A program made the translations under genes and the position numbers. Below, in pieces: positions 4,376-54,376 of a stretch of DNA of 64,000 bases. This DNA comes from Ziziphus jujuba (Eukaryota > Streptophyta > Magnoliopsida > Rosales > Rhamnaceae). A model generated the notes under the pieces. That model ran no database searches. It had not been told where the DNA came from and was given only the letters and a program-made list of their open reading frames with translations. The stretch lies in assembly GCF_031755915.1 (NCBI RefSeq), contig NC_083390.1, forward strand, positions 15,097,001 through 15,161,000. The letters run 5' to 3'. Position 1 is the first letter of the stretch, and the number at the start of each line of letters is the position of its first letter.

Positions 4376-6669
4376 ATAACATTATATTTGTCACCTTTTA
4401 TTTGCACTTTGGTTTCTTGCCTTTCATCTCTTTGCATTTATTATTATTATTATTATCATTGTTCCCTTTAGTGACTGTTTCAAACGTTAGACCGAGCTAT
4501 TTTAAATTAATAATTCTATGATATGAAAAACTCTATCAAATAGTTTATTGGATAATGTGTCAAAAATAGTATGATATTATTTTATTTATTATTTTATATT
4601 TAGATTATATTTATTATTTGTTAATTAATAAAATAATAATTTAGTATCAAACTATATTATTCGATGAATCATTTGATGCTTGTAATACTATTAATTTTGA
4701 ATCATTACTATTAGGGTTCCTAAAATTTTTCACTAAACTTTGTTTAATAAATAATGATGCAGGAGATTAGTTTGATAAAACTAAATTTTAGATTCATAAG
4801 AAGTGAATTTAATGACATCTTGTCGCATTATTTGGTAAAAAAAAAGAATTTAGTAAACTTGGTTTTTTTTTTTTTTTTCAATTTGACCAAGTAAATATTT
4901 AAAGTAGTCTTTTATAATTAAGTACTTTTAATATTTGAAAATGAATTTCCTATTGATTTTCAAAAAAGAAAAAAGAAAAAAAAGAAGCTTGTCAATTATT
5001 CCGTATCAGATTTTGGATGTCCATTATATGCATTGATTCGTATTTTAGAATAATTGATATGATGCTCAAGTATTGTTGATTAGTTTTATATCTTAATATG
5101 TTTGAATTCTCTTCCCACTTGTATCCTTAAATGCAAATTAGAAAGTGTTAAAACTTTCATCACATTTCTTTATTTTTATAACCTTAATACCCTTATAACA
5201 AATTGTTGTGGTGAATATTAGGTTCAATGTTAACTTTTGACCTTGAGGGCATTTGCGAGAAGTAAAAAAGCTAAAGAATATACCAAATTATTACAAGTAA
5301 TATGTCTCATGGGTATTATTATTATTATTATTATATAGCTCAAGAAAAATAATGTTTTTGGATTTTGCTTTCATTTGATAGTGGAGTACAAGTAAACATT
5401 CAATTTACTAACTCATGTCCTTTTAAGTTTTAACAACCTTAAATTATTAATCTGATGATGGATCTAAGCCTACCCTTTTGGACCGAGTGTTTAATTCTTA
5501 ATAAATTTTGAATCTTTCTGTGTTCACAAGGACAGCCGGATAGCTTTCTCAGAATTTTTTATTTTTATTTTATTTTTTTAAGTATTCTCAATGAAAATAT
5601 GGATTCCAATTCATGTAGCATGGAAGCTGAAAAATATTTATTTATTATATGCCATAAATGTCTTTTTCAATAAATAGCAAACTCAAAAATCAACCTCTAA
5701 TGATTGTATTTAATACTGATATTTAAAAAAAAATATATTATATGATAAGGATTATTTTTAATTTTTTGCTGAGTAATATTGTTTAGCCAATATTGTGAAA
5801 ATAGATTAGTTAATCTCAGAATATCTACTTTATTTATTTGTTTATTTATTTATTTATTTTTACCATGTTAGCTTGACGTAGTTTTTGGACAGATAGACTA
5901 AAGAGTTTTTTTTTTTTTTTTTTCTAATGGTTATATATATTTATAATGTAGCAAAAGAATTTTAACAACACAAAGCTCTAAAAAATCTCTAAATTTGAAT
6001 TTTCTATCTCTAAAAATAAATAAATTTGAGGAGAACTTTATTACGATTAGAAGTGAGATTGTTTGATTAGATATGTGATTGAAGATCAATTTGGTTCTTG
6101 GTAGTTTCGAAGATTCAATTTAAAATTATACATTTCTAAAACATAACTAAAAAGTGAAAAACAATATATTATTATTATTATTATTATTTTTTAAACCAAA
6201 AAACAATGTTATTTTAACCAAACATTTTATTGTATTTGGGGTTTCGGCGACGGTTGGAAATGGGTGCCGTCGTATATGACACCTATTTTCTTGTGGTGCA
6301 TTTATGTATATTATTTATATTTATATTTATATAGGTTTTCCAGATATAATTTTAAGAAATTATGCTCAAGAAAATGCCTCTTTTAAAACAGTTGCATATA
6401 AATGTCATACAAAACTAATTTTCAAATAAGGTTTTGTTTAGCCACTATTATTATTATTATTATTTTTTTTAAACCACTATCTGCTTTGGCAAACATTCCA
6501 AATTTCTCACTTCAATATTAGGAAAAAAAAAAAAAAAAAAAAAAGAAGAAGTTTTTGTTTTATATTATATTTTATTTAAAACTCTAGTTCCACACACCTC
6601 TAGTGCAAGTCCCTTTTCCTCTAGCCTCTGGACTCAAAATCAAATGAAAAAAAAGAAAAAAAAGGGAAA
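4376..6669. other. AT-rich intergenic DNA upstream of the first PPR gene
   Basis: No gene is recognisable. ATT/TTA microsatellites occur near 4438-4457, 5311-5334 and 6169-6190, with poly-T and poly-A tracts. The last 100 bases before the PPR start (A/T-rich, then CT-rich around 6590-6625) are the likely promoter and leader of that gene. Confidence 0.55.
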
Positions 6670-12707: not shown

Positions 12708-14376
12708 GTTACTGGAAACTGAAAGACAACGTTGTTTGTGTTGAATTAGGAGAGCTTTGAAGTTATGAACTTATGATTGGCAGAGGAGTTGTCTATGGAG
12801 GACTACACCAAAGCATGCATAAGCAAAAGCAAAGGTAAACAGTTTTAGGAGCAAAATTTATTTCGTAGAGAATTTCACCCATTTTATTTCATTTTTGCTA
12901 TTCTTCATAAATGTTGAAGCTCCACAGATGATTTTATAAACACCTTGTTTTCAATTGTATGCCCCTCAATTTTCGTTAAATCATCATTAAAAGCCAAGGG
13001 AAAAAAAAAAAAAAAATCATCCATTATCAGTCAGCTGATAATTTGACAATGGCGTTTATAGTGGGGAAAAAAAAAAAAAATAAATAAAATTTAAAAATTT
13101 AGAAAAATGGAAGGCATGGTCAACATTTTGAGAGGTTTGTTGGTTTCCGTTCGTAAAATGAATGAAGTTGAAAATTAATAGAAATAAAAATTTCAGAAAA
13201 AGAAATGATAATTTATTTTAATCCATCAACTGTGAATGTAAAGTACTTAAATAATATGATCTTTTTTATATATAAATCATGAATCCAACTGCAATTTTAT
13301 ATGTTATTGCTAAAAGGACAAAGGTATCTTATATCTTAAACTTATCACGTTTTTCCATTTGTAAATTTTACCCAATTTTATTTTTTATGCTAAAAGGGGA
13401 GAGAATATGCCCCAAAAAAAAAAAGAAAAAAAAAGAGGGAAATTCTGGACGTTTCTACCAAAAAATAAAAATGGAGATATGATAGTAAATATACAAAAAA
13501 ATATATGTATTTTCTTTATTTTATTTCCTTGGTAATTTTTATTCTAAAAGTGAACTTTGTAAAACTATCCATGAAAATATTGTTTCAATGCTCAACCCCA
13601 CCGCTTTGATTACTATATTAATTTTTTTTTATTTTTTTTTTAAAGTAACCATATTATAAACATTTTATTGCTCCTACCATGGCATTTTAAGGCCTTGATG
13701 ATCTTACAAGAATGAGTTAAACCTGCCCAATTCAAGTGCCCCCCCAACCCAAAGGGTTCAACAAAGACCAAAACGTTATGTCTTTTATCGTTTATCTCTA
13801 GTTTACAAGATGCCAGCTCTAGCTTCTATCATGTGATGTTTTCTATCACACAACATTTTCTTTTTCGGGTCAATGTTTCCATCACACTAACATATTTGTT
13901 CTTGGTGATAGAAATTTCACAAGATAAACTCCATTGCTAAAAACAAGTACCAGTTTTAAGGCTAACAAACAGATCACAAGTTCCATTGCCTTGATTTCTT
14001 CTCCATTGGAAAATGAGGCAAATTTGACCAACACCCCCAAATAAAGTAGAGATTTGAAACCAGAGGAAAAAGCTCTCTAATCGCTATAATGTATAAAGAA
14101 ATTCTGCCTGCAAGGAATGTACAAATGGAGATGGCTGAGCAAAATGAAATTCCTGCAGAAACAGAAACATCATGGATTGCATTATATAGCTGGAAAATGA
14201 GTGTGTATATCAGCTTCACAAACTTCTCAGACCAGAACTAGATGCTAGACACGGTTAGTAGCTACTATCCTTATTTTATTCGTCAGGTAAGAGAAAGAAA
14301 CTATTAACTCACACATGCTCCTACCTTCAATAAATTGGTAAAATGGAGTATATTGAAGGCATGTGGCTCTTAGGCA
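12708..14376. other. Intergenic: PPR promoter side and ClpF 3' side
   Basis: No gene seen. Poly-A tracts occur near 13000 and 13067-13080. The segment next to 14376 should contain the ClpF 3' untranslated region and the segment next to 12707 the PPR leader. The middle is AT-rich with no recognisable repeat. Confidence 0.55.
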
Positions 14377-24695: not shown

Positions 24696-25895
24696 TGTCA
24701 CCGGGGTAAAATTTAATCCTAAATTTTTGCCTTTGTGTGGCCTAAGGTACCATACCTTAGTTAAACAAGCTGTCCAACACAATCTCACATATACATGAGT
24801 AGGTTCACATAGTCATAGAGTAATCACAAAGTAATAATAAGGCACACCATAGTCAAGAAGTCTCCCCCAACTTTTTTCTTTACTCACAATAATAAGGATA
24901 TATTGGTCAAGAAAATGTAAGGATCATTACAACACTTTCTATGGTATCTCCTACATTGTTCTAACATTTATAGCCTACAAAACTTGCAGTTAACAATTCT
25001 AAGGCATAGGTAATGTTCAACAATTAATTTAAGCCATTTGGCCATGTGGTTGACCTCATATAACCACCAAGAACATGTGTCTACAGCCACCAAATGCCCA
25101 AATGTAAGGACAAGCCCTTCAACATCTTTGAATGAATGCCACCAAGTTACTAAACATAAGGAATCATCGATAACCGTCCCCGAAGTCAGCTCAGAATAAT
25201 ACCAAGTGTTAGGCATGCAAGCTGCACAAAGTTGTATAGAAGCCTTATGGCCTTGCTTACACATGCTACCCACATGCAACTCATAATAGCTACGAACCGT
25301 AGCCAACTCAACCCACAAAAGGCGCCAATGCACAAAAGCGTGTCTAGCTTCATGCCTTTCCTACATACACTTGCTACTGCATGCTGCAAATGCCTACATT
25401 TGCTATTACATGCTATTGCACACTACTACTGATGCTGAGCACTACTGCACAACATGGCCAGTCTACATACAACTGTACAAACACAAGCCCACACACCTAC
25501 ACACATAGCTCACATATAAAAGCCAAAGGCTGCACATGTTTGCATAACTCACTCATTTATGTGCATGCTCGCACGCTTGCACGTATGCTTGCTTGCATGT
25601 TACATGTCCACGTCCACAAACCACACTTGCTATGCATATCAAGCCTATACCACTTGCGATATTCTCAAACACACAAACATGGTTGCTCACATTGCATGTA
25701 TAAGGTTTGCCTATATATTGGCACAATGTCATGCCACATGTGCCCATATATGTCTACACATGCTTGCATTGATGCAAAGGGTCAACAATAGTCATGCACA
25801 AACATTTGTTCCCACATTTACAATCATGCTAAACCAAGCCTATGCCATGCTCCAGATAATAGATATACTAGGAATCCACCGATACCATGGCCTAA
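24696..25895 (-). repeat. Chromovirus 3' LTR, distal part
   Basis: Aligns by eye with 39953 to about 41140 of the 5' LTR: shared landmarks include TGTCAC at the edge, the GGCACACCA and TGTCTCCTA/TATCTCCTA phrases, ATGGCCTTGCTTACACATGC and ATTGGCAC. It is rich in CATGCA and TGCACA words. The right limit is uncertain because a Harbinger element was inserted here. Confidence 0.8.
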
Positions 25896-33038: not shown

Positions 33039-36000
33039 CAATATTGTCAAATCGTGACTCGGAACGTGAATTGTTTTGTTAAAATTATAAAACGTGTATC
33101 GTAAGATACATTTAAAAATAATAAATTATAATAGTATCAATCTATCATTCATCAATGTAAATATAATTATGTAATTGTAAATTTAACATCTAATTTTTAA
33201 AATGTTAGCTACATCCATAAAATAAAATTTTAATGAATACTATTTTTTGAAAATAAAACAATAGAAAATTTTAATTAATTATAAATAATGTCAATCTTCA
33301 AATTCAAAAGGATCGATATCATCATCCCCCAATTCATCTCCACTCTCCATGTGATGGTCTTGTGCTTCCTCATCATTACTATTGTTTTGTCCAATATCAA
33401 TTATTTGTTTTCCCTTATCTTTACTTGTAAGATCTCTTGGACGTACAAATAAGTAAATATATATATTACTATGTTGTGACTATTTTACAAAAAACAATAT
33501 ACTTAAATTATTTATACATTACAATTATCTCTTTTTCTTTTTTTATTGTTTTCTTCTTCTTCAAATTCAAAATATTCATTGACATACATCCAAGTTATAT
33601 CATCAGGTAAGATTGAATCTTCTTTTTTGGTAATCCACTCATCATCAGATTCTAAATCTAATAGACAAATAGGATCATAGAACTCACCTTCTAATACTCT
33701 TTTTTTATGTCTTGCCTCTAATTGGAGATTGTACTTTATAAAAACAAGTGCACTTAATCTTTTTTGTTCTAAATGATTTCTTCCTTTTGAGTGCACCTAT
33801 TTAAAATAATAATAATAATATTTAAAGTTTAAACTACATCATATAAACATTTATTAATATTTAAATAAAAATATTATACATGATCAAATATACTTCAATT
33901 TCTTTCACATCCAGTGGCACTACAAGTCAAACGAAGAATTCTAATGGCAAGATTTTGAAGCTCCTTACAACTTCCACTAAATGACTCCCACCATAAAGCT
34001 GTAAAATTAAAAACAAATAAATTTAATATATAATTTAAATGTAACTAGATTCAATATTTTACCTGGTTGCTTTTTATCTCTCATTTGAATAGCCATATCC
34101 ATACTAAACATATTTTCTGCATTTCGGAATTGATCCAACTGTTTATCAATTTTAAGCCTTAAGTACGATTATGGACACATTCTTTGTATTGTCTTATAAA
34201 GTCCCATTTTTACTTCATAATCCGCATCAAATTTAGAAGAATATTGAAATCTACATTTCAATTTAAATGGTAATTAATTAAAGTAGAAGAATAATTAAAT
34301 ATAATAATTAATAAACCATAAAAAATAAAAATATTTTATTTAATAAATTAATAGATAGACTACTATATAAAAAAATAAATAAAAATAAAGTTGTACTTTA
34401 CCTTGGATTAAGAAAATAGGCTGCTGCATGAAAGGGTCTATGAAGTTGTAATGCCCATCTTTTATCAATAATATCCCAAATCAGCTTGTAATGCTTTTGA
34501 ACTTTATTGAAATTAGCTTCAATTTGTTCTTTTGTACGGTCCATTGCTTCATAGATATAACCCATGGCGGGTTTTAAGTCTCCATTAACAAGCTTTAATA
34601 CTTTTACTAATGGAATTACACATTTCAAACAATAATCAATTGATGTCCAAAACTTTTTATCATCAAGAATGATATCCATAACCATTGTACCATCTGACTT
34701 TTTAGAATAATTGCTTCTCTGCCATTCTTCAGAACCAAACATTGCTTTCAGTCAATTTTATTCTCCTCCAAACTTGTCAAAGTCAAATAAGAAGTAGCAA
34801 AACGAGTCATAGCAGCTCTAATTAATTCTCTTTCCTTAGTATATTTTCTCATAAGGTTTAAAACCCAAGAGTGCCTATAGATATACATTGTAATCTTTCT
34901 TGCCTTAAACACTGTATCACTATGTATGGGTAAACTTCCAATATCAGTTAGAATTAAATCTAGACAATGTGCTGCACAAGGAGACCAAAATAATTTTTTC
35001 CTTTTATCCATAAAAAATTCTCCAGCTTTTATATATGCTGCTGCACTATCTGTCACTAATTGAACTACACTATCTTCACCAATTTCATCTACTACAGAAT
35101 CAAGAAGCTCAAATAAATTTTGTGCATTTTTAAATATACCTGATGTATCAATACTTTTTAGAAACATAGTCCCTTTAGGACTATTCACTAAAAAAATTAG
35201 TAATAGATCTATTTTTTCCATTTGTCTAAGCATCTAACATGAGTGTGCATCCTTTTTTTTTTTTTTTTTTTTTCCATTCAGCTGTGTATTTTTCTAGTAG
35301 TTCCTTGTTAATTGTTTCTACTTCTTTTTTCAAATATTTAATCCTTATTTCATGATATGATGGGGGTTTCAAAATTGGACCAAATGAAGATACTGAATTC
35401 AACATAGCTGTAAAATAAGGACTTTTCACTAAATTAAAAGAGAGAGCATTTGCATAAAACAATCTACAAATATCTGAACAAACACTATCTCTATCTCATT
35501 TTTTCCACAAAGTATTTAAAGTGATTGTTGCTGGTTTTTCACCACCTTTCATAAAAGCATCCATCATCAATTTTTTTTTTATCATGTTCATCTTCCTCAT
35601 TGTCAAAAAAATCATCTCCATCATTTTTTTTCTTATTTCTATCTATTAATTGCTTGAAAAAATCACGAATATCATTAGGAACTTTCTTGCATCAGGCAAC
35701 ATCTTTTCATGTACCAGCTAAGTGATTTTTTATTCTAAAAATATCTCCCCAATAATAATTTCCACAATGTATACACTTCAATCTCAATCTATTACCTTTT
35801 CCTTTCTCTATATTTTCACAATGATCCCAAGTTGGATCATTATTTTTCCCTTTTCTTTTATCTAACATGTTTTCTTAACCAAAGAAAATAGGAAAAACAA
35901 AGAAGAAGAAAAAAGGTAAGTTTGTGTACCAGAAATATTGAAAGAGGCCAAATCTGATTGTGCCGCACTTTATTGACTAATACTTAGGTAAACTAGGTTT

Positions 36001-36758
36001 ACATGGATATATATATATTATTAATTACTATATATAAATATATTATACATCAACTTTTACTTTATTATTTATTTAAAATTTTAAAAAGTTGATTTGTACT
36101 GCCATATCATAACATCACATTTTAATAAATAATAAAAAAATAAAATTTTTTATTCACGTGCCTCCATCTTATCAAATAGTAATAATAAAATTTCTTTATT
36201 ATTTTATTTATTCAATCTATTGAGTTGCATGAATCATGATCCTACAATTAATTTATTTTTTATTTCACTGATAAATTCACCAAAAAAAAAAAAAAACACT
36301 TTAACCAGTAAAAACTTTTCTTTTATTTTTCCCTTTTCTTCATCTCTGTCATTCATCTTTGTCTTGTTTTGGTTTCCTTTCTGCATCGTTTACTTCTCTA
36401 TTTTTTGCCATTTATCTCTATTTTCTGTTCTGCCATTTATCTTCTGCCTTTGCATCATCTTCTTATTTTCTTTGTCTTCTTCGATTATCAGTATCTTCTT
36501 CTTCAATCCCCCCTTTTCAAATAGATTTGTTTCTAAGGTATTTTACATTTTGAGGAGTGAAATCAACTGAAAAAAGGGAAAAATGTGCAGAAAGTCTGAA
36601 ACGGTGAATCGACGATTTGTTCAAATTGTGCGATTCACTTTGGAAAACGTACGATTCATCTTCCATTTGATTCACATAAATGGTTTGTATCATTTTAAGT
36701 CAAATTCGATACAAATCGGATGATTCGTATCGTGAATTGGATGATTTAAATAACATTG
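33039..36758 (-). mobile_element. hAT transposon inserted in chromovirus pol
   Basis: A 3,720-bp insertion within the integrase region. Its ends are inverted and imperfect: CAATATTGTCAAATCGTGACTC at the left and, reverse-complemented, CAATGTTATTTAAATC at the right. They are flanked by 8-bp imperfect duplications TCATCATC (33031-33038) and CCACCATC (36759-36766); 8 bp is the hAT rule. The subterminal regions repeat GATTCG/CGATTCA words, typical hAT transposase-binding clusters. Inside lies a BED-finger, hAT-type transposase remnant. Chromovirus sequence resumes directly on both sides. Confidence 0.8.
33512..35875 (-). pseudogene. hAT transposase with BED zinc finger, decayed
   Basis: Reading leftwards: start MLDKRKGKNNDPTWDHC and BED finger LKCIHCGNYYWGD followed by RIKNHLAG (about 35730-35870), broken by stops; the DUF659-like core with LLIFLVNSPKGTMFLKSID, DSVVQLVTDSAAAYIKAG and the CxxH motif CAAHCLDLIL (34748-35233); a middle part with VLKLVNGDLKPAMGYIYEAM and AAAYFLNPR (34398-34742); and a C-terminal piece RNHLEQKRLSALVFIKYN (33512-33796) ending in acidic and lysine-rich sequence. 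The family cuts and pastes DNA with an RNase H-like fold. At least three frame breaks separate the pieces, so it is inactive, although the DSAAAY and CAAH motifs survive. Confidence 0.85.
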
Positions 36759-36766
36759 CCACCATC

Positions 36767-38600
36767 ATTGTTGGATGACTAGCCCAGACAGAGTCATAGG
36801 ATTCACGCAATAATTCCCTGTGAATCTTTCCACTAGTAAAGACATACATTTTATTGCCTCATGCATAAATGAGTTCCTCTACAAGCTAATATATCCACAC
36901 CAAGCCATCTTTGATCTCTTGTGCAAGCTTGGTGTTGGCAGCATCCTTTAGGCTTTGCTCCTTGATTCGTTCTAGAAAATCAAGCTCCACATGGATAATG
37001 GTAGCAGCATATGCATGCACCTCTTTTTTGCTAAAGGCATCCACCATCTAAATTTGCTTGCCTGGGCGATGAAACTAGTCATAATAGAACTCACCAAGGT
37101 ATTTCTACCACCATGCTTACTTGGGGGTTAGCTTCTTTTGGATCTTAAAGTAAATATTCATAACATTGTCAGTCACCACTATAAACTTCATTTGTAGCAT
37201 GTAATGCTTCTAAACATCAAAATAATGCACCATTGCAGTAATTTCTTTTTTATGGCCTGAATACCTCTACTCTACTTCCTCCAACTTCTTACTCTTAAAG
37301 GCAAATGGATGGTTGTCTTGCACTAACACACCACTGATTAATATGTCTTAAAATCATCCTACACCTTAAAAGGCACTTGAATCGGATAGGTTCAAAATAA
37401 GTTCAACAAAGATGGTTTGTTTTATCTTCTCAAAATTTTCTTTTATCACTTTCTTACATCCACTTGGCAACTTTTTTAAAGCAAATTAGTTAAGGGACTC
37501 ACTTTCTTAGAATAGCCTTAAAAAAACCTGCGATAATAGTTGGCTAAATATAAGAAATATTGAAACTTAGCACAGCAACCTTCATAGAAGGCATCCATCA
37601 AATTCATGATTTGTTGCACTTTCCTACTATTCATTTTAATATGCCCTTGGCCTATCCCATGGCTAAGAAACAACACGCTTGATCGCAAAATTCACATTCC
37701 TCCTTCTTAACACTCAATAGGTGTTCCCTCAACTTAGAAAACACCATCTCTAAGTGCTCCATATTTGCATCCTCGATCTCACTCTACACCATAATATCAT
37801 TTAGCTATACAACCACAAACTCATCCAAAAACTCACACATTATTAATGAGGTTACAAAAGGTAACAAGAGTATTTGGTAGATCGAAGAGCATTATAGGGT
37901 ATTCAAACGAGCCATACTTTGTAACATATGCTATTTTTTGCTCATCATCTTATGTAATTTGCCCTTGCCAATAGCTAAACCGAAAATTCAATTTCGTAAA
38001 GATAGTGACTTTGGACAAATAATTGAACAAGTCCACAATGTTGGGCATTTGTTACTCATCTTAATGGTGTTCTTGTTCAAAGCTCTATAATCCACACAAT
38101 TCACATTGTACTATCATGCTTTTTTTGAAGCAACTCTACAGCATTATAAAGGGCCTTGGACGGTTAAATACGCTCAGCATCAATCAACTTATCCAACTAT
38201 TTCTGCAAGTTATAAACTCTAAAAGTTTCATCTTATATGGTGCACGAGTAGAGTGTTTAGCACTAGGTTCCAACTAGATCTTTTAGTCAATTGCTCATCT
38301 AGGAGGAAGTGTCTTAGGTAACTAAGGAGGTATCACATTTGCAAATTTCTCCAACACGTTAGCAATAACCTCAGACACTTCCACATGTTGGTCTATTTTA
38401 ATCTTTATCAATGCAGCTACAAAGATCTCCACACCTTTATCCAAGCCACCCTTTGATTTGGAAGACATATATCATCTTATATAGTTTTTTGGAATGCTCT
38501 TTCTCAGCCAGAGTGCATTCCACATATGAGGAAAATAAACCATCAGAAATGAACAATCCTACTCCAATAAAGCATCAAATACACTCGAGCATTGATGAAG
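36767..38600 (-). pseudogene. Chromovirus reverse transcriptase, RNase H and integrase N-part
   Basis: Minus-strand frames contain recognisable Ty3/gypsy RT pieces: RALNKNTIKMSNKCPT, YGSFEYPIML, and FLDEFVVV followed by stop-LNDI, where the catalytic box should read YLDDI (stop codon at 37805-37807 replaces Tyr and Asn replaces the first Asp). RNase H-type sequence follows towards 37300 and integrase begins below about 37000. Multiple stops throughout. The element cannot have made its own polymerase for a long time. Confidence 0.75.
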
Positions 38601-38672
38601 AAATCAATGCCTAATATCACATCAAAATCATCAAAAGGCATCACCATAAAACTATAATCACTTTCCCATTCT

Positions 38673-38954
38673 CTAACTTATAGAGTCGCCACAACTATGT
38701 ATAGGTCGTGTAGCAGAGTCAAGGGCATTGATATGACTTAAATGTGAATTGATACTTAAACCTAAGTCTTTTGGCTTTTTTGGCGCAATAAAATTACGTA
38801 TGGCCCTTGTATCTAGTAGTGCTATCAAATCCCTGCTATTGATCCACGCTACAACATAAAAGAGTTCTTGTTGTAATTTGTCCTTCTCGACTGTCAGAAC
38901 ATTCAGCAACTGAAGAGGTACAACCCTATAAGGAGCAAAATCACCATCATTCAT
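38673..38954 (-). pseudogene. Chromovirus aspartic protease region
   Basis: The open stretch includes ALLDTRAIRNFIA, which corresponds to the retroviral-type protease signature ALLDTGATHNFI; the glycine of the DTG active site is replaced by arginine. It lies between gag and RT as expected for Ty3/gypsy. The preceding NILTVEKDKLQQELFY-like stretch is usual linker sequence in this clade. Confidence 0.75.
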
Positions 38955-38970
38955 GCCCCATCATCAGCAA

Positions 38971-39932
38971 TTACCACATTGATTTTCTCCTTCTAAAGAC
39001 AGCTACAAGTTTTATGGGGTCCATTACAAATGACGCATCTACTAATGTTTTTCGATTTCCCACTGGAGTAATCTGATTTAGACTTGGAAGACTCGCTTTT
39101 CCTTTGCTTCTTGCCACTCTTGGACTCTTCCTATCACCACTCTTTTTTTTGTCATCGGAATATGATAATGGAGCAGAGTACTTGAAGTCCAACAAGCCAT
39201 CTGCAGTGGTAATAGCAGTGTGTAATTTTGCACCCCCTTGCCTTCTTAATTTAGCTTGTGTCCACCATTGTAAACCAGATTTAAAATTAAAAAGCTTATC
39301 CTCTTTAAACTCCTTCACATACTCACGAATGCTACCAATATATTTTAGTTTTGTTCAATGCATTCCTGGCAACCCAAGCTTATTGCCAAGAGAAAACTTA
39401 TCTTTTAGTTCCTTCTTCAACCAATACCCTATCTCAATCTTTAGTCTATTAGCATCTTCATGATCTTGCAATCGGTTTACCTATCAAGGCTTCACATTAC
39501 TAGTTAAATACATATTTGTAATGGTTATGTTATCATGATTTGAGTAATGAGTAGCATTGAAATACTGCACCATGTTCCTTAAGAAATTCTCTAATTCTTT
39601 CAAATTCTTAGCTCTATTAAAAGGCTTCGAATTGGGAGAAAACTGCCTATAGAAGACTAGAAGACAGCCAACTCAAACTCCAACAATTGCATCTGAGCCT
39701 TTAGCACATCATTGAAAGACATTAAATCCTCCATGATAGTCACATGCCTATCATTTAACTCTGTGATGGATGAGGAAATATTATGTGCCACAATGTTTTG
39801 ATGTTCACCATGGCATTATCCAACAGATTAGAAAGGCTTATAGTTGGATCTTTTTAAGAAAAAAGCACCTAGCGACTCCTTGTTATGGGAAATTCTCTCA
39901 TGCGTGGCCTCCATCGTTGAGCCACCAACCAT
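38971..39932 (-). pseudogene. Chromovirus gag remnant
   Basis: Starts MVGGSTMEATHERISHN at 39932, just inside the primer-binding site, as in plant chromovirus gag. Later pieces include LQWWTQAKLRRQGG and a basic linker KKSGDRKSPRVARSKGK; the zinc knuckle is degraded. Stops occur between the pieces. Confidence 0.7.
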
Positions 39933-39952: not shown

Positions 39953-41451
39953 TGTCACAAAGATAAAAGTCAATATCAATTTTGGTCTCTGTATGGCATA
40001 AGATATCATACTTTAGTCAACCAAGCTCGCCTTACATAGTCTCACACCTACATAAGTAACGTGCATAGCAATCACACACACAATGTAATTGAAGGTAATT
40101 ACAAAGCAAAAACAAGGCACACCAAATTTATAGGGTCTATCCCAACCTTTTCTTTACTTGGAGAAATAATGATAAACACAGGCCATGAACATGTAAGGAT
40201 CACCACAACACTCTTTATGGTGTCTCCTATATTGTTTCAATATTTACAACCTACAAAACTTCTAGTTAAGAAGGTTAACTGCATGGATAATACTGAAAAA
40301 ATTAGCTGAAGCCATCTATCAATGTAGTTGACCTTGTATAACCGCTAAGAATATGTATAAATACAAATGCTATATATTAAGACAATTCTTCCAACATAAT
40401 TGGATGATGCCATTAAGGCATTAAACACAAGGAACCATCGATAATCACTCTTCAAAGTAAGCTCAAACTAATATTAGATGTCAAGAATGCAAGACACACA
40501 AGATTGCCTAGTAGTCATGTGGCCTTGCTTGCACATGCCATCAACATGCAACCTACAATAGCTAGGAACCACAATCAACCTAGTCCACCAAAATGCTAAT
40601 GCACAATATTGCTCGCTAAACTTCACCCTTTTGCACATTCACTTGCTACTAACGTCCACATTTGTTATTGAACGCTATTGCACATTGCTACTTATGCTAA
40701 GTGTTGATGCACACCACAGCTAACCTACACACAATTGCGCATACACGTACTCATGCATCTGCACACATGGCTCACATACAAATGCACAAGGTTGCACTTG
40801 TTTGCACAGCCCACTCTCCTATGTACATGGTCGCATGCCTACAGGCATGCTGATGCTTAAATCCAGAAGCCACACTTGCTATGCACACTAAGCCCACACC
40901 GTTTGCCTACATTGGCACACACATAGACATGGTTGCCCATGTTGCATGCATAAAGCCTATTTATACATTGGCACCAGGCTATGACACACTTGCCTATATA
41001 TGCTTGCATTGACAGAAAGGGTCAATAATAACCACTCACAAAACATATGTTCTCACACATGTAGTCATGTAAGATAAAGTTTGTGCCATGCATAGGCATC
41101 TAAGAGTTTGTCCATGTCAAACCCAACATGACCACTGCGATACCCCCTTTCAAAAAGCTTATTTAGTCCTTTAATTTCCAATAACACCATATATATGAAT
41201 GCATGAGGAGTTATAATAGCCCTCGGTATCCAAAGGCTTGCCACCATGTTAAACTCACACCCAATAATGTCTATCATCATGTCAAGTTAACCCACACACC
41301 CAATGCATGTTTATTTGACGTTACACCCGATATCCAACCTTTAGTGTCCATCAACGTTGTGGGCCGCCTAAGGCATACATGCACACCAAGGCTTAATTAG
41401 GATATATGGTAGCCACCATACGTAGCCCATCTTGAAGCTCAAGGCCTAATA
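39953..41451 (-). repeat. Chromovirus 5' LTR
   Basis: A 1,499-bp LTR that is the uninterrupted reference copy for the split 3' LTR. In element orientation it ends GTGACA next to the primer-binding site; its outer end reads TATTAGG, where the other LTR has TGTTAGG. It has many CATGCA, TGCACA and CACATG words. Frames inside it are not genes. Confidence 0.8.
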
Positions 41452-41640: not shown

Positions 41641-42126
41641 TTGATTTTCAAATAAATAAATAAATAAATAGTTCTATACTTTTTCTGATATGGCATTTTA
41701 TTTTTTTTTAACCCAAAAATGTTATTTTTTTTATTGTCCAAGGCCATCTAAATCTCTTCATTTTTTTTCTACTTCGTGCTTTAGTATTTTTCTCTTAGCA
41801 ACAACAAATTGAATAAGAATTTGTTCACAAAAAAAAAAAAAGAAAGAATAGGAATATTAGTTATAAATATTCACAAGTTCATAGCATCAGTTGAAAAATA
41901 TACCAATGAACAAATCGATTGATACAAAAATCCCATAAAATAGCTGTAAATAAAAATAAAATTAAAAATACAAAAATCCACAAGCCTTTCATAACATTTA
42001 AAATTTCAAAGGGCATAAACCACAGTTGAAAAATAATAATAATGTAAAAAATAATATTCTAAACTAGATCAAATCTTGATCACTGAGTCTACGGTTATCC
42101 TTTAACTCTCTCTTTCTTTATCTCTG
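41641..42126. other. AT-rich spacer between the LINE fragment and the palindrome
   Basis: AAAT units, poly-T and poly-A tracts. No feature recognised. Confidence 0.5.
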
Positions 42127-43226
42127 ATGTGATTCTGTTCGAGCTCGCTCCACCGATAACCCGCTGGGGTGCTGACTCGACACGGATGAAGACTAGGCCA
42201 ATCACAAGAGCTCAAATTAAGAAATTTAAGGGCAACCTGGGAGTATTTATACAGAGGGTAATCAATCTTAACAGAGCTTGTCCATACTTGAAGATACAAA
42301 GCCTATTCGAAGCATCCAAGTGGTGGAAGCCGATACGGACCCGGGTGACGGTTTTGGTACATTTTTGGAGTCCGGGAAGCATGAAATGGTTCCAATGCTT
42401 TATGGGTTCAATACATATGCCTAAGAGGTCATGGAATCAAGTTAAAGCAGCCTCAAATGCAATCAAAAAGGGCTTGTACGGACAGCATCAACAATTTGGC
42501 CGAATTTGCTGCATTGCTTGCTGGCTTTACTGTATTTTACTGTATTAGCCTTTTCTTATTTTTCCAAGCATGGGCAACGTGTGGGACTTCATATTCAGCT
42601 TATTTGGCATCCTAAAAAGAATCTAGAAGCTGATTTGAAGCTCAAAGAGGTCAAAGATTGATCAAAGTCAACTTGATCAAAAGGCTAGCATTTTTAGTTT
42701 CCTAATTTGTTTTAAGAAACTACCATTACTTTTTGTCTTTTATTTATTTATTTTCTGGACAAATAACTTTAGGAAGGTTTTTATTTTATTCTTTCCATTG
42801 TAAATTAACTAATTCCTAATTTAATATAAAGGAGTTAATTAATCAAACTTAGATTAGGAAAGGAAGTATAGTTTTGGCCAACTAGGTTTCTTTATGTGTG
42901 GTGGCTGGTTTTCTTTATGTTCTAGGGTTTTATTTCGTGGCTTTGTAGCCTATTTAAAGGCTTAGTTATCAATAAGAAAAAAACTTTGATTTGACTAAAA
43001 GAAAATACTTGTGAGATTAATTATCTCTTTGTTCTTTGAGAACACCTAAAACACCATTAGAGAATTGGTTGTTTTAGCTTGACTTATCAATAGGTTTTCC
43101 ATCCCCTATTGTGGCGTCTACATTATACCAAGGTGTCTAACCACAGGTTGGTTAGGGGTTGAGGTCCATTCCATTAGAACTTGAACTTAATTAAAGATCC
43201 GGGCTAATATAATACGGGTTTAGGAG
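42127..43226 (+). mobile_element. Left arm: LTR-retrotransposon 3' fragment
   Basis: Reads outward-to-centre: a 139-codon open frame at 42129-42548 (TRWGADSTRMKTRPITRAQ, then KFKGNLGVFIQRVINL), a spacer, and LTR-like DNA with CTATTTAAAG and a CAATAAG segment. The open frame is the last part of a Ty3/gypsy-type polyprotein or sequence just after it, not a separate gene. The clade is unclear. Confidence 0.7.
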
Positions 43227-43250
43227 ATGATACGAACCTAGGATGACCTG

Positions 43251-44350
43251 CTCCTAAACCCGTATTATATTAGCCCGGATCTTTAATTAAGTTCAAGTTC
43301 TAATGGAATGGACCTCAACCCCTAACCAACCTGTGGTTAGACACCTTGGTATAATGTAAACGCCACAATAGGGGATGGAAAACCTATTGATAAGTCAAGC
43401 TAAAACAACCAATTCTCTAATGGTGTTTTAGGTGTTCTCAAAGAACAAAGAGATAATTAATCTCACAAGTATTTTCTTTTAGTCAAATCAAAGTTTTTTT
43501 CTTATTGATAACTAAGCCTTTAAATAGGCTACAAAGCCACGAAATAAAACCCTAGAACATAAAGAAAACCAGCCACCACACATAAAGAAACCTAGTTGGC
43601 CGAAACTATACTTCCTTTCCTAATCTAAGTTTGATTAATTAACTCCTTTATATTAAATTAGGAATTAGTTAATTTACAATGGAAAGAATAAAATAAAAAC
43701 CTTCCTAAAGTTATTTGTCCAGAAAATAAATAAATAAAAGACAAAAAGTAATGGTAGTTTCCTAAAACAAATTAGGAAACTAAAAATGCTAGCCTTTTGA
43801 TCAAGTTGACTTTGATCAATCTTTGACCTCTTTGAGCTTCAAATCAGCTTCTAGATTCTTTTTAGGATGCCAAATAAGCTGAATATGAAGTCCCACACGT
43901 TGCCCATGCTTGGAAAAATAAGAAAAGGCTAATACAGTAAAATACAGTAAAGCCAGCAAGCAATGCAGCAAATTCGGCCAAATTGTTGATGCTGTCCGTA
44001 CAAGCCCTTTTTGATTGCATTTGAGGCTGCTTTAACTTGATTCCATGACCTCTTAGGCATATGTATTGAACCCATAAAGCATTGGAACCATTTCATGCTT
44101 CCCGGACTCCAAAAATGTACCAAAACCGTCACCCGGGTCCGTATCGGCTTCCACCACTTGGATGCTTCGAATAGGTTTTGTATCTTCAAGTATGGACAAG
44201 CTCTGTTAAGATTGATTACCCTCTGTATAAATACTCCCAGGTTGCCCTTAAATTTCTTAATTTGAGCTCTTGTGATTGGCCTAGTCTTCATCCGTGTCGA
44301 GTCAGCACCCCAGCGGGTTATCGGTGGAGCGAGCTCGGGCGGAATCACAT
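43251..44350 (-). mobile_element. Right arm: inverted copy of the same LTR-retrotransposon fragment
   Basis: Mirror copy of the left arm on the minus strand; its open frame (43929-44348) differs from the left copy at only a few residues (MIPPEL against MILFEL; KIQNLFEA against KIQSLFEA). No full second element is present on either side. Confidence 0.7.
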
Positions 44351-45333
44351 TAATCTCTCTCTGTTTTCCATTGGTATGGATTCACTTGTAATTTCTCTAT
44401 CTTAAAGTCAATGGAAAAGAAGGAATGAAAAGGGGAAGATCAGATCTGCAACTGTTAGGAGTGAAAATTTGCAATAGAAGGAGATAATCTAAAGGTCAGA
44501 TCAAATATTCAACAGAAGGGAAAAATCTAAAGATTAGGATTTAATGGCGAAATAGTGTTTGAGGTTTGAGTAGTCCACTTATCAAATCGACCATTTGGTA
44601 GGAGGTAAACATTAATATGGAGGCAAAAACATTTCAAATGGTGAAAGCAAAAGGCTATTTGGTAGGAAGTAAAAATTATTCATTAGAGTTGCAAAAATTA
44701 TAAGTATATTAATTACCGATAGATATGAAGAAAAGGATCATTGTTTTTGAAAATATATTTATACAATATTCATTCAAGAAAATTGTTACGAATTATTTTA
44801 ATTAGTCTCTTTTGTTTATTTATCTTTTTTTTGCTTTTGCTTTTGTTAATTTTATTTTTATAAAATTCATATTTAAAATTTATATTTTGTTGACTTTACT
44901 GTTTGGGTTTTTATTGATTTAATTATATAAAATTAATATTTAAAAGAGTGAAAAGTGAATATTTTGCTAAATTCTATATATAAATTAAACTCAAAATTAT
45001 TGCAGTTGGAATTAAGTCTTAACATTTGGGAAATTAACAAATAGTTAAATAACGTTAATTAAAATTTTTCAAATCAATTATTTTTTATATTAAAAAATTG
45101 AAAGTTGAAAAAAAAAATAATAATAATTTAATCTTCTTAAAGGTATAAAGGTTATTTACATTGCCGCCAGAGAAAATAAGTAACAAGCTCCAAATGGCAG
45201 ATGAACGAGGACTAAAGTTGAATTGTTTCAAAACATGGAGACTAAAATTGATTTACACTAAAATTCAAATACAGCAATTAAAATTAACCTTTAAGAAAAC
45301 ACTATTAAATCTTCTTTTTGGATTATAAATATC

Positions 45334-47439: not shown

Positions 47440-50400
47440 CTAGGGTCGATGATATACATATTTTGTTCTGGGGTCCACAATCAGACCCTTCCCTCCATTC
47501 ACCTCCAAATCGTGCCTGTATTCATCATGGATCAATTACCACATTAGAACCAAGAATCTGGTTACATACAAACACAGAATTATCACAGAACGTATATCAA
47601 ATTTCTCCAGCTCAACACTTTTTCACAAGTGATTTGCTTAAACATCAATTAGCCAAGAACAGGAACAAATTCAAGAAGGAAAAGGATAAACAAACTCAAC
47701 TGAAACACGAAGTCGGGAATGGTCAACTGCTCACGAGGAACATATCTGAAAAGCTGCAGTAGTCGATCTACATATACAACCTTTTTCCATGCCTAAAATT
47801 TAAAAGTCCAAAATAGTCAAAACAGTAGATCTTTTAAAAAAAAGTTGCAAAGTAGTCAAACAGTAGATAGTTTATGAGCGACAAATACACTATAAAAAAG
47901 TTTCATCATACCACATTGTCCACGAACAATTGCAGAGCAAATATAGCAGCCTTCAGTCCAAAAGTTGGGTGAAGGACGTAAATTGCCTACATAAAAGGAC
48001 ATAAATATTAGAAGCAAGATCATGGGTATGTTATTGATGATCAACAAGATGGAAACATCTTCAGTGCATACATGAAGATTTCGTTGATGTTTCCGACCAA
48101 GTATTTGCTGTAATCTTCTCATCCATCCAAGGTCAGGCTGACTGCTCCAGAAACAGGTATTGTGGAATAAAGTGAGTAAAACAGGATTACTTTCAAAAGC
48201 ATTTTACACACAATAGGACCTACCCAGATATAGTCATTCACTGGTTTTTAATAGGGAATATGAACTAGAAATTGAAACGCCAATTATTTTCATTTTATCA
48301 ATTATTTCTATAATTCTAATGAACAAGTTTCAAATTCTTATCTCATACTCCAAATAGTATTTGTTTGCTTTGCATGTGTCCTTGGCTCTAGAGAGATCAC
48401 ATTAATCCACGAATTTGGCTATATACCTCAATGGGGAGAAAAGTGTTCGACATCCTGCTTGTCAAGGGACTCGAAAAGAATAATGCGTTGTGGCAAGCTT
48501 GACTGGTAGTTTTATTTATTTTTTTTTTTAATAAAAAAAAAAACAAACTACTGAGCTCTGTGCCAAAAATCATCTAGTCACATTTTAGCAGCTAGGAATA
48601 TTTTAAAAAAGATATCCCCTAATTCCTGAGAATTCCTAGTCAACATGAACAACCCATGGCAAACAAGTTGGCAATATGCAGTGATGCTAAGGCTTAAAGT
48701 TATCCATTTCTGAAAGGCAATCACATATACTTACAGCTGCAAAGATGCTGCAGAATGGAAGTATACAATAGTATAAGGCTTCTGTATCAAAGGCTCAAAT
48801 TCCTGAAATCAATAATCAGGACAGTGATTACATATTCAATAGCAATAAATAGATAAAAGTACAAAAATTAGTAATCAAGATGAAATGAGCATATGAAAGA
48901 GGAGAAGATTTTCCAGCATCTAACAGAAAGGATTGTTAACCAACGATTGTATCAGCAAGTTCATCTCTGCAAACACTAATCTCCAGACCAAACAGCAACA
49001 TTTAAAAATTTGATTACCTTAACAACATACAGCACAAATCGCTCCAGATCAAGACATCTTAGCAGAAAATGTGCCCCCACAACAACCATAACAGGGCGGC
49101 CCTCACTATCAACTCCACCACGGTACCTGAAATTGGGAGAAAAATAGATATATATCTGATTTAATGTTGATTGCAACAGAAGGTAATTAGTCCAAACACA
49201 TGCACTATTTTATATTGCAAAAAGGACAAACACATTCCACAGTCATTTGTTTTTGACAATGGGAAGGATCTTAAGGAAACAAGTCTGCAGATATTTCTGC
49301 CAAATAATGCCTTATTACAAATCATAAATCTTGTAGTGGAGGTTGATCACATAACTATTTATGAGTTCCACTATGTTCACGAATATTAGCATCATATCAT
49401 TTTTAAGTGACAAACTTACCTTCTTTCTTACTAAGTTGGAATTATGGGTTTTACAAACTATATATTTCAAATCCCAAGGGGAATTTACAGCAAGGAGAGT
49501 GCACTATATTTATCGGTTGTACTTGTACAGGTCTCTGAAAATTACAGCCTCAAGACCCATATTGCCACTAATATAACTATTTGTAACTCTAACTTGGACA
49601 ATTCATATTATGGAATGGCAGAAAACTGACTGTTTGCAAAACAACAGAAACCTAAAGTTGGCATGTCAGAAGAAAAGATGGATGAGAACTTACACAATTT
49701 TCATCTCAGCAATTTCAGAAAGATTAAGAGAGTTTGCCTTAGCAAGGTATCTTGAATGAAGTGAGTACTCTTCAGCAGCAGATAATGGAGGTCCACCAAG
49801 ATCACCAAACCCAAGCAATTTTGCACAATTCCATCCACCTTGTGCTTGAGCTGTTTTCTCCCATTGCTCCTTGCGTCTCTGGTCTGGATCTTTTATTAAG
49901 GACATGAAGGCAGGATCTAGGTATGAATCCAAGTACGATGAATTCCTAAAAAATGCAATTATTTGTATGGTCGGTTGTTAAATTACAAAAATAAACATAG
50001 ACAATTTAGCCCCATCAACAAGATCAAAGCACATGAGTGCACAGCAACCGTGGATGTAACAAAATGAGGAGTTGCTAAGATTGTTTTATTATAAAAGCAA
50101 CAGCTTTGAACTAAAGAACTGCTAAATTCTAATAGAGAGGTGATCTAAGCAAAATTGATTAATAATAAGTTATAAATATGGATTGAACTACAAAGCTGGA
50201 AAAGGTTTATCCCATATATGGTTGTGGTATATGACAATATGATGCTAAAACCACAACAAACACAATATACCAAGGAGTACAACATGATTTGTGATTACAA
50301 TCAATAATGTTAGAATTTCTTTTGAAAGTTCAAAATCACATTGAATTGGCTACAGAAATGTAGTATACAAAACCATAGTTACAATGCAAACATTAAGGAA

Positions 50401-53400
50401 TATTTCTAATTGTAGAAGTGTTCAAAACATTCTGAAAAATGCTTCTGCAAAAATCTAAATTGCTGATAGACAGTAGCATAATCCCTATTAAAATATCAGA
50501 AACACATCGATAAAAGAATGTTGCAAACCAAAACAATTAGAGTCATTATGATATACATAAACATATCTTTGTATTGAACATACAATTCCAATCTTGTTAC
50601 TAGTGACTAAAAGTCTTAGAAAAGAAATTACTATTATGAGTATTAAAAAATGTAAATGTTTTATTATAAAAGCAACAACTTTGAAATATAAACTTCTAAA
50701 TTCTAACTGAAAGGTAATCTAAGCAAAATTGATCAATAATAAGCTCTAAATATGGATTGAAATACAAAGCTGGAAAAGTTTTATCCCATATATGGTTATG
50801 GTATATGACAATATGAAGCTAAAACCACAATAAACACAATATACCGAGGACAACATGATTTGTCATTACAATCAACAATGTCAGAATTTCTTTTGAAAGT
50901 TCAAAATGAGGTTGAATTGGCTACAGAAATGTAGTATGCAAAACCATAGTTACAATGCAAACATTAAGGAATATTTCTAATTGTTGAAGTGTTCAAAACA
51001 TTCTAAAAAATGCTTCTGCAAAAATCTGAATACTTAATAGCCAGTAGCATAATCTCTATTAAAATATCAGAAACACATCAATAAAAGAATGTTGCAAACC
51101 ACATCAATTAGTGTCATTATGATATACATAAATATATCTTCGTATTGAACATACAATTCCAATCTTGTTACTAGTGACAAAAAGTCTTAGAAAAGAAATT
51201 ACTATTATGAGTATTAAAAAATGTAAATGTCTTAAAATCACACTGACCTTCGTGCCAAGCCAACATCACTGACAGGGAGATCACTTGGAGCTTGAGGAGG
51301 CCTAGGAATGGTCTTTTTTGGCAAAGGCTTTATTCTGATTTTACGTTCATCTATAATCGTCTCACCATTTTCATCTCCTACATCTGCAGGTAATTTTGAT
51401 ATGGCAACCTCCTCCTCATGTTTATCTCGAGGAAAATAAAGTGGAAGCAATCTACGTAGAAAAATGTGAAAAGAAACAGTTAAGCTTCTACTTTTTTGAC
51501 AGAAACTGTAATAACTAATAATCTCATTAAGCACATATGTTTCAATTCGTAGCTGCATGTTCAAATAAAAAAATTGCCAAATTCAGAAACCTTTTATATA
51601 TCTCCGTATCAGTTGATGTAGTAGTACAAAAGACTACAGCTGTGATTTTATCTTTCTGCTTCTCAAGAAACCGTCGTACAGTCCCTGAGCAAAAAGAAGA
51701 CATTAGATGGACAAGAGAACTAAGAAGCAATTAAAATTACAAAATCTTCATCAAAATTATTATTCCCAAACAAGTACAATCTTCCCTCTGTACTTATCTG
51801 TACTTACATCATTAAGTGCTTTAACACTCATACAAAAAGGTAGCTATATATGTTTGTCATTTGATAATAATCATTTTTTTGGGCCCCAAAATATGACTCC
51901 ATTGCATTTGGTACAGCAGTTAAAGTTAGAAAGTCATCATAGAGGAGTTAATATTTCCTGAATGAAATTGTACGGAACTATTTTCCATAAGAATATGTGG
52001 TGGCATTTCAATATTATGAATTCCCAATCATGCCAAAACTACTCTAGCAACTCATGGAACAACTGTTAAAATGTAGAAAGTAACTCACTTATAGCAACAT
52101 GGGCAGCTGGTTCACGAGGATAGTTTTTATTCTCTGTATATATGCAACCCATTGCGATGCTGCATTCATACATGTCAGGGAAAGTAAGTTCCAAACTTCT
52201 ACAAGCTTATAGAAGGAAAGCAAGTGTTGAGACTACAGGAAAGAAACTAATGTAGCATTAGCTGCAAAGACACCTTCGAAGCCGATTTTCTATGAGAAGT
52301 TCAAGGCAAGATCGATAGCAATGACTAAGAGCATTCTCTGCAGCAGTATGGTACTTTACTGCATATTTGGGACCTACAGTATGGATAACCCTCCTGGAAA
52401 AGATACATGGGAAAATGGAAATTACATAGTAAAGAATATAGAATGCAGCTGAAAATACTCAAAAACAAATTACTACAACACAACATAAAAAACTACTAAT
52501 AAAAGATCAAAGACCAAGGATGCCCAAATATATCTGTGAGATTTATACTTGGTGCTATAACTAGACTGATGGAAAGCACGTTATGAAGCATAAGTACAAA
52601 CTGATAGATGCAAACCCCAAATATTTTCACTAGGACATGCTCCTATGTAGAATGAAAGAAGTTAGCATTTACTACAATAAATATACTAATAATAGACAAT
52701 TGCAAGGAATAATGGTATTGTCACTGTGGGTGCAATGCAAAAATGAGGATCAGAGATCAGACATTATACTGCTCAGATTTCTGGTTCTTTTCAACATGAA
52801 AGTAAAAAGTGCACCAGTAAACCCACCTCGCAGGAAGGTCGTATGCATTAGTAACTTTTGCCATTCCTGTTCGACATCCGCCCTGTCAAAAAAGATATAT
52901 GAAAATTGTCATCTCCTAATGTATACATGATTTATGTCAATGAATATACCATGTTAGACTTATTAACATCATCAAAGCATTGCCATAACATTAGGTTCCA
53001 ATCAAGTATTGACAAAGAAGAAAAAACATCAAGTATAGATAGTGCTACCAGTGTTGCACATTCTTCTGCAAGACCAGGTCCAGCTGCAGCATGCAAACCA
53101 GGACTGCTGTGTGCTTCATCCAAGCTCTATTAACAATCCAATTAAAATCACATCAGAAATACAAAAATTATTAGCCTAAGACATGTAATATTGAGTAGTG
53201 AGGCAATCATGCATTCTTAAAGGTGTTCTTGTACTGAAGGGTGAAGTACCTACTTTCCTTAAGATGCATTCAGTTAGAAAATCAAGTAAGTTATTCACGA
53301 AATTTATTAATCATTTATCAGGTGAAAACGTGGAGTGCCACAGTAAGACCTCCATGCCAGCACAAAAAAATGAACAAAGATGCACCATAGTTCAGGGGAA

Positions 53401-54376
53401 TTGTCTGTCGGTACTCCTTTATGATTTATCAATAAGTCAACCAGCTGTCTAATCAGTCCTTGTATAAGGAGCTTCACAAGAATCCTCAGACCTAGTTATT
53501 CAGAACCAAGACTAAAGATCTAAGTTAAGGCTAAATATCTGAGTTTCTCAACTCAATTACCAAAAGAACCATTATAATCAGCAAATTTGGTTCAACAAGC
53601 ACTAAAAAGGAAGAATTTCTCAACATCAGGTGCAGGCAAAATTCCAGTACGTGTTCAAGTTCAACATGGAATTACTTCAGTTATGAAAATCATTCACACA
53701 CATTAAAGCTTGCAAAACTTTACTGATAATGGCTAGCACACTATATTCACATTTCTAAAAAGTTCATAACTAAAAGAAAAAAAGTTTTCACAATTGTTGT
53801 TTAGCATGTCTGAATATGCCCGATTAAGTCCTGACAAGTCCAGTTTTTAACAATCTTTTAACCATTTCCTTGTGTCAGAATGAATACCAAGAGTAAAAAA
53901 ATCAAAATCAAAATGTCAAAGTCATGCAATTGTAACAATTGATACCTTTCCACTTCCTATGAACAGAACGAACCAATCGTTTAAAAGAGAAGTTTTCTGC
54001 ATATTTATACACACATCTATCATTATAAAATGCTCACCTCATTTGTAGAATTTACAACAGCATCCACTTCAAGATTCCATGGGTTGCCCCTCCAAAGATA
54101 TATCTTTAAGTTAATTTCGTGATCAACTGGAAACCTCGAAACATTACCATTGCTACTGCTGTCTTCCCCAGGTGGAGAAGTCAAAGGATCCGGGAAGTAG
54201 GAATTAGAATATGATGGATCTTCATTCTCATATTCCAAAGAAGCCCTGTACTCAGCATCGCTCCACCTTGGAACCTGATCCAAACTGACAACATAATCCC
54301 CATTATCAGTTGGTGGTCCACCTGGGGTCGAGGTGGGAGCTGTAGCCACAGTCCTATACATTTTCGTGGTATTCAA
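47440..54376 (-). CDS. Macro-domain plus CRAL-TRIO (GDAP2-type) protein, At1g69340-like
   Basis: Fourteen exons with GT-AG ends (54038-54376, 53049-53126, 52827-52882, 52274-52393, 52089-52159, 51591-51684, 51248-51451, 49694-49945, 49018-49126, 48735-48802, 48072-48141, 47912-47986, 47701-47792, 47440-47515) give 1,704 bases: 567 residues and stop. Residues about 95-253 are a macro domain (VDAVVNSTNE, LHAAAGPGLAEEC, ARRVIHTVGPKY, FCTTTSTDTEIYKR), a fold that binds ADP-ribose-type ligands. A charged, Pro-rich linker follows (about 253-395). Residues about 400-545 form a CRAL-TRIO/Sec14-like lipid-binding domain (VVVGAHFLLRCLDLERF, YTIVYFHSAAS, RNLHAIYVLHPTFGLKAAI, WKKVVYVDRL). This pairing is that of animal GDAP2 and its plant homologues; the plant role is not established to my knowledge. 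The end is RTKYVYHRP. A second possible start (MYRTV) lies five codons in. Exon 11 may use 48144 instead of 48141 (NAGNAG acceptor). Confidence 0.92.
50082..51227. repeat. 575-bp tandem duplication inside an intron
   Basis: The large intron between exons 7 and 8 of the macro gene (49946-51247) contains two adjacent copies, 50082-50656 and 50657-51227, both beginning TGTTTTATTATAAAAGCAAC and sharing nearly all landmarks (CCCATATATGGTT, ACAACATGATTTGT, CAGAAACACATC, ATGATATACATAAA). Differences are scattered. It nearly doubles the intron and has no coding content. Confidence 0.92.

Follow-up and report, generated by a model that had tools for sequence, protein, structure and literature searches.

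The palindrome is an inverted dimer of long terminal repeats (LTRs) of a plant Ty3-type retrotransposon that probably entered the chromosome as one pre-joined unit, whatever the joining route, a judgement that takes in a template switch as well as end joining. It lies in the window, the whole 64-kb stretch of DNA analysed here (C12:15097001-15161000). Between the two copies of a single target-site duplication, ATCTC, the unit consists of a plus-strand LTR without its last 23 nt, one base and a complete minus-strand LTR (Table 1), and its true limits are 42125-44352. Because the one ATCTC duplication spans both outer U3 ends, the palindrome appears to have entered once, via these two ends.

The first-pass annotation had described a near-perfect palindrome with arms of about 1,100 bp and no indel. 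Alignment of 42127-43226 with the reverse complement of 43251-44350 bore this out: 1093 of 1100 positions match without a gap, and the substitutions number seven rather than 'about six'. Just beyond the palindrome, symmetry drops to 9-19 matches per 50 bases in eight 50-base bins. When the arms are delimited by the LTR ends of other copies (42125-43226 and 43251-44352), there are eight differences in 1102 positions, all of them transitions. The 24-nt spacer (43227-43250) has the length first given, but its reading as a loop had to be redrawn, as it consists of the U5 end of the right LTR and one junction base. A BLAST search of the 64-kb window with an arm revealed no further copy and only short low-complexity matches, and an Rfam search gave no match.

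Table 1. Features of the palindrome and the nearest recognised gene (positions within the window)
Feature	Position	Strand	Basis or remark
Left copy of 5-bp target-site duplication ATCTC	42120..42124	.	Adjoins LTR start from other copies; equals 44353-44357
Left LTR, TGATGTG...TTTAGGAG, without last 23 nt of U5	42125..43226	+	Alignment with 37 genomic LTR copies
Part of LTR coding for polyprotein C-terminal tail	42127..42548	+	End of L004 ORF; mirror copy 43929-44350 (-)
TATA-like box TATTTAAA in left LTR	42951..42958	+	Pattern only; mirror copy 43519-43526 (-)
Single junction base A (T on minus strand)	43227	.	As expected for first base beyond U5
'Loop': last 23 nt of right LTR's U5 plus junction base	43227..43250	.	
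Right LTR, complete, TAATGTG...GTTCGTATCA, start TA for TG	43228..44352	-	Genomic LTR copies
Right copy of target-site duplication ATCTC	44353..44357	.	
Host gene with Macro match and two weak CRAL-TRIO matches	47440..54376	-	Limits by eye

Identity of the arms and the target duplication

The 394-Mb assembly (14 contigs) was searched with one arm. The search returned 44 rows, two of which were the arms themselves; 37 of the other 42 were fetched, the five omitted being partial or short matches. Copy counts are lower bounds, because only 40 of 4057 first-look candidates were scored. All 37 fetched copies (1121-1138 bp) aligned to within four bases of both LTR ends, and nearly all read TGATGTG...GTATCA, giving an LTR of about 1.13 kb. 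Some copies are preceded by a polypurine tract (typically TTTTCAAGAGGAGGGGAA), and some run into TT followed by TGGTATCAGAGC, which we take to be a methionine-tRNA-type primer site. Fourteen of the 37 were marked by the script as having neither tract nor primer site. In two of the 14 (L022, L024) a variant primer site can be made out by eye. The remaining 12 are solo LTRs, 10 of them with a perfect 5-bp duplication; two of these solo copies, L033 and L037, have flanks in common. Since the genomic copies have defined LTR ends together with a polypurine tract, a primer site or a solo duplication, the arms are identified as LTRs. Derivation of the palindrome from an LTR retrotransposon, as first proposed, was thus confirmed, and the search for a parent element yielded relatives, the nearest sampled copy being 97.6% identical.

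One copy, L004, has a 426-aa ORF that includes an SH3_Tf2-1 domain (E = 9.4e-14), crosses the polypurine tract and continues into the LTR, and its tail is the one encoded, in the same reading, in both arms. The polyprotein tail previously placed on the outer side of the arms is therefore real; it is not separate from the LTR, however, but forms its first part. This Ty3-type integrase end was found in L004 only, and beyond it we assume the Ty3 placement of the family. Pfam searches gave no match for a second ORF of L004 or for the ORFs of both arms, no close relative of the arm ORF was confirmed in IMG/VR and GTDB, and the protein-database matches P0003 and P0005 are unnamed short ORFs within LTRs of the palindrome's type; a further protein search gave no match.

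The unit has the TG...CA ends, the 5-bp duplication and the relatives with primer site and polypurine tract of an LTR retrotransposon insertion, except that the right LTR begins TA and the left LTR is shortened. It is not a complete element, as its LTRs are inverted and the internal region is absent. Like a solo LTR, it is LTR sequence without an internal region between the copies of one 5-bp duplication; unlike a solo LTR, it contains two LTRs in opposite orientation, with U3 at both outer ends. Long inverted repeats and a target duplication would also fit a DNA transposon or a fold-back element with terminal inverted repeats, but these arms are LTRs, and other members of their family form direct pairs that have a primer site and a polypurine tract; we give this explanation next to no weight.

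The chance of two window pentamers agreeing is 0.0022, or 0.0085 in CT-rich contexts, with the register fixed by other copies. This test supersedes an earlier flank test made without known LTR ends (6-bp match, chance 0.010 to 0.038). An LTR start at 42331 behind a purine-rich tract had also been considered (9 of 11 terminal bases, reached in 130 of 1000 shuffles; with the tract, 19 of 3000) and was ruled out by the genomic copies. The flanks (left, 41671-42119; right, 44358-44795) had no other match in the genome in a search that skips very common words.

Differences between the arms and age of the unit

The eight arm differences were polarised against other copies, and all are derived C-to-T or G-to-A changes, five in the left arm and three in the right. 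For comparison, such changes made up 54 of 100 polarised changes in five ordinary LTR pairs (Fisher p = 0.02 against 8 of 8, one small test) and 98 of 312 single-copy changes in the other 37 copies. The ordinary pairs were matched by position and orientation; three have identical 5-bp flanks, and the flanks of the other two agree at four or three of five bases. The C-to-T excess between the arms fits heavy methylation and may be a hint of it. It is no proof of small RNAs, and the sequence contexts do not single out CHH sites: no siRNA-type CHH bias stood out, 4 of 7 classified sites not being distinct from 20 of 54.

Arm divergence is 0.73%, slightly below that of the five ordinary pairs (0.88-2.82%). 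At the rice rate of 1.3e-8 per site per year, this corresponds to about 0.28 My, against 0.34-1.08 My for the five pairs. A tree of 39 LTRs placed the arms as sisters (100/99), as it did both LTRs in each of the five ordinary elements. Six changes are private to both arms (five substitutions and one inserted base), and because only one of them is C-to-T, they seem to reflect differences in the source, not conversion. The high identity had been ascribed either to recent origin or to ongoing arm-to-arm conversion. Recent origin holds; conversion left no sign in the comparison of arms with other copies and is not needed, since the divergence is near that of ordinary LTR pairs and the private changes are unlike the differences between the arms.

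Other U5-U5 joints and the origin of the unit

Four exact-pattern scans of the genome were made from the family's U5 sequence, with no mismatches allowed. Two complete U5 ends were found at five places, with six for a wider gap and eight for a shorter core, and the trimmed form of the palindrome was found at its own locus only; reversed-pattern controls gave none in each of the four scans. In total there are 12 distinct U5-U5 joints including the palindrome, with no 4-LTR dimer among them. Long LTR stretches lie on both sides at five of the 12 (the palindrome, L060, L061, L062 and L063), and three of these five have one shared duplication: the palindrome, L060, and L062 together with L064. Nine of the 11 other joints (L050-L054, L061, L063, L065 and L066) were set aside as nested, fragmentary or ambiguous; L063 is old (79-82%), and no shared duplication was found there. 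L052 (C11) and L066 (C6) represent one arrangement, and L051 (C6) and L053 (C11) another, with common flanks. Both consist of an LTR with inverted U5 pieces at two loci each, as if duplicated or mobile as composites.

The L060 unit (C2:21826880-21829138) is an LTR pair with one duplication, TAAAC; its arms are 94.6% identical, and it is older. The C4 unit (L062 with L064, C4:6135624-6143074) reads GATCC, LTR(+), TT, LTR(-), polypurine tract, internal region, LTR(-), GATCC, and comprises a full element, one further LTR placed in inverted orientation at the 3' end of that element, and one duplication. The element's own two LTRs are 99.5% identical and have in common a 10-nt deletion and one base change, which are absent from the extra inverted LTR and from two outgroup LTRs. 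Lacking the deletion and the base change, the extra LTR was probably copied from a different template; it also has two differences of its own, which may have arisen later. The C4 unit looks like an intermediate with its internal region still to be lost and bears on cDNA biology, as it suggests that cDNAs from two templates were joined before integration.

We propose that the U5 ends of two cDNA molecules were joined, the first after loss of 23 nt and the second with a base still present beyond its terminal CA, and that integrase would then have inserted the joined molecule via its two U3 ends, generating a single 5-bp duplication. If the joined cDNAs were full length, their internal regions would have been lost later by LTR-LTR recombination. 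The 5' LTRs of the palindrome's family read CA followed by TTTGGTATC, and the junction base fits cDNA or a 5' LTR. Bases are kept beyond CA at the joints of all three units (A in the palindrome, AA/TTTG in L060 and TT in the C4 unit), whereas in the nested insertions L050, L052 and L061 CA is directly joined to the insertion's own duplication (by eye). Since unit joints keep these bases and nested joints do not, joining may well have preceded trimming of the U5 end by integrase. Several points count against entry as one unit: no 4-LTR dimer is among the 12 joints, the joint-base argument concerns 1-4 bases in three loci, and the 23-nt loss from the left LTR needs a separate trimming step. Joining of cDNA ends with slight losses and some terminal bases retained is also a feature of 2-LTR circle junctions of retroviral cDNA; there, U5 meets U3 in a single circle, whereas the palindrome is an integrated U5-U5 joint, apparently of two molecules.

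The same pre-joined unit could be reached by a template switch, in which the plus strand jumps to the 3' end of plus-strand strong-stop DNA and copies back to the U3 start, making the inverted part LTR-long from the outset. Plus-strand strong-stop DNA begins at the polypurine tract, and this start would account for the precise U3 ends as well as the 3-LTR unit with no need for recombination. In L051 and L052 there are again U5 pieces whose starts fall in the ~11-nt tract that contains the palindrome's break (by eye). For Ty3, PMC5371799 describes plus-strand synthesis primed at the polypurine tract. The products of such a switch are hairpins, however, which must still become linear duplexes, and there is no microhomology at the palindrome joint. 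End joining is our preferred route, since the extent of trimming differs and two templates seem to have contributed to the C4 unit, and we regard the switch as a doubtful, though serious, candidate. A U5-terminal DNA hairpin as the cause of the fold-back was also considered and found weak.

It is also conceivable that the palindrome arose in two steps: a second element inserted in reverse between the target duplication and the first element's U5, both were reduced to solo LTRs, and about 28 nt were deleted at the centre. Adjacent and nested reverse insertions are present in the genome (L050, 4 nt from another U5 end, duplication CAAGT; L052, near a primer site, ATTTG; L061, inside U5, CTAGG), and since these also put LTRs tail to tail, a two-step origin with central deletion keeps some probability. 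It would, however, require the second element to hit precisely the 5-bp target of the first, each element to become a solo LTR, and the centre to be deleted. The arms group as sisters and have six private changes in common, whereas identity is no more than 72-84% for the self-inverted matches in L050, L052, L061 and L063. Had ATCTC stood directly before TGATACG, the preceding base would be C; it is A. A nested insertion would show its own duplication for each LTR, with CA directly joined; the palindrome has one duplication per pair and the joint base A, although a later central deletion could hide a nested insertion. Taken together, we consider the two-step origin unlikely. Elsewhere, the solo LTR L032 (C1:102604-103714) is apparently reverse-inserted within another LTR of the same family.

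Palindromes are prone to assembly errors, and a fold-back or chimera could produce such a structure. Here, however, the sequences on either side of the insert are unlike each other and unique, eight derived differences distinguish the arms, the duplication lies at LTR-defined ends, and similar units exist at two other places (L060; L062 with L064). The shared duplication, unique flanks and similar units weaken the artefact explanation without removing it, and we judge it very improbable; assembly collapse of a longer palindrome is possible.

LTR retrotransposons, solo LTRs, nested LTRs and silencing inverted repeats are kinds already known. In literature titles and abstract openings, an integrated tail-to-tail LTR pair with one duplication was not described among the matches listed, and within those matches an integrated U5-U5 LTR pair with one duplication, recurring in one genome and including a 3-LTR form, is apparently new.

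Predicted hairpins, silencing and neighbouring sequences

If transcribed throughout, the whole unit has a predicted fold with a minimum free energy of -2030.7 kcal/mol and 1100 axis pairs, compared with about -520 for five mononucleotide shuffles. By this prediction the palindrome is, as first suggested, a possible hairpin source, an inverted duplication able to form a long RNA hairpin in the manner of Mu killer. The TATA-like box reported to face the loop is present (Table 1), with a second match at 42825. From an assumed start about 30 nt after the box at 42951, a transcript would form a stem of 245-246 bp and then run antisense through the other LTR; the match at 42825 would give roughly 370 bp (by arithmetic, not folding). 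The view that transcription from either arm would make a long double-stranded RNA is thus overstated, as a start inside either LTR would give a partial R-U5 stem (~245 bp from the box at 42951). A full 1.1-kb stem would need read-through from an outside promoter, for example that of the gene to the right. At the C4 unit, read-through past the 3' LTR would make a 1.1-kb LTR hairpin.

That gene (Macro, E = 6.9e-8; CRAL_TRIO_2, E = 0.055 and 0.064, below the cut-off) is the nearest recognised one and is presumably GDAP2-like. It points at the palindrome, with its stop codon about 3.1 kb to the right. Two tandem copies of ~580 bp (92%) lie inside the gene region at 50082-51234. PMC3440606 describes a hairpin RNA proposed to arise at Mu killer (Muk) by read-through from a flanking gene, an arrangement that the gene beside the palindrome resembles. 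The same paper disputes that model, reporting short antisense transcripts rather than read-through hairpins in silencing plants while allowing minor longer transcripts. Mu killer of maize, like the palindrome, is a natural inverted duplication of part of a transposon; unlike it, Mu killer stems from MuDR, a DNA transposon, and genetic work demonstrated its silencing effect, whereas the palindrome's arms are LTR promoters and a silencing role for it is hypothetical.

Transcripts crossing the axis would fold back, and the resulting siRNAs could guide methylation of the family's LTR promoters; we hold this tentatively, and production of hairpin-derived siRNAs at the palindrome is a conjecture of the same standing. 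For EVD of Arabidopsis, PMC11624286 proposes that LTR siRNAs arise from inverted LTRs arranged tail to tail, head to head or nested, and names LTR hairpins as a candidate silencing trigger needing further work. A search of discordant reads in that study revealed no inverted LTRs close together; one nested insertion in antisense orientation is given, with LTRs 2562 and 1942 bp apart. The EVD hairpins are a proposal, whereas the palindrome's LTRs are directly joined, as one unit in the assembly. At RPS of petunia, a short inverted repeat attracts methylation and the RdDM pathway is not needed. The LTR-hairpin idea bears on the question of how an active LTR retrotransposon is first detected by a plant and silenced at the level of transcription, and it is testable with small-RNA and methylation data because the genome holds three sequence-tagged LTR fold-back units. 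A broader scheme, which we put forward as speculation, is that recurrent U5 joining of cDNAs and two-U3-end integration would yield ready-made LTR hairpin loci, with three to four LTRs and then as bare palindromes, seeding siRNA silencing of the family's own promoters. If so, hairpin loci would be a self-limiting by-product of retrotransposition. In yeast, MRX/Sae2 does not attack inverted Alu repeats whose spacers exceed 8 bp, and breakage at such repeats is reduced; the palindrome may therefore owe part of its persistence to the 24-nt asymmetry.

Other features of the window include two long PPR ORFs with an E motif on opposite strands (6625-8808, +; 10251-12770, -) and a DUF659 piece (34751-35233, -; E = 1.5e-36), which we take to be a decayed hAT transposase. 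Degenerate pieces at 36889-39354 (-) resemble Ty3 gag and reverse transcriptase by eye; Pfam searches of five pieces from 35710-39354 gave only BEN, at E = 0.14. A direct repeat of ~1.15 kb with 69% identity occupies 24696-25850 and 39953-41091.
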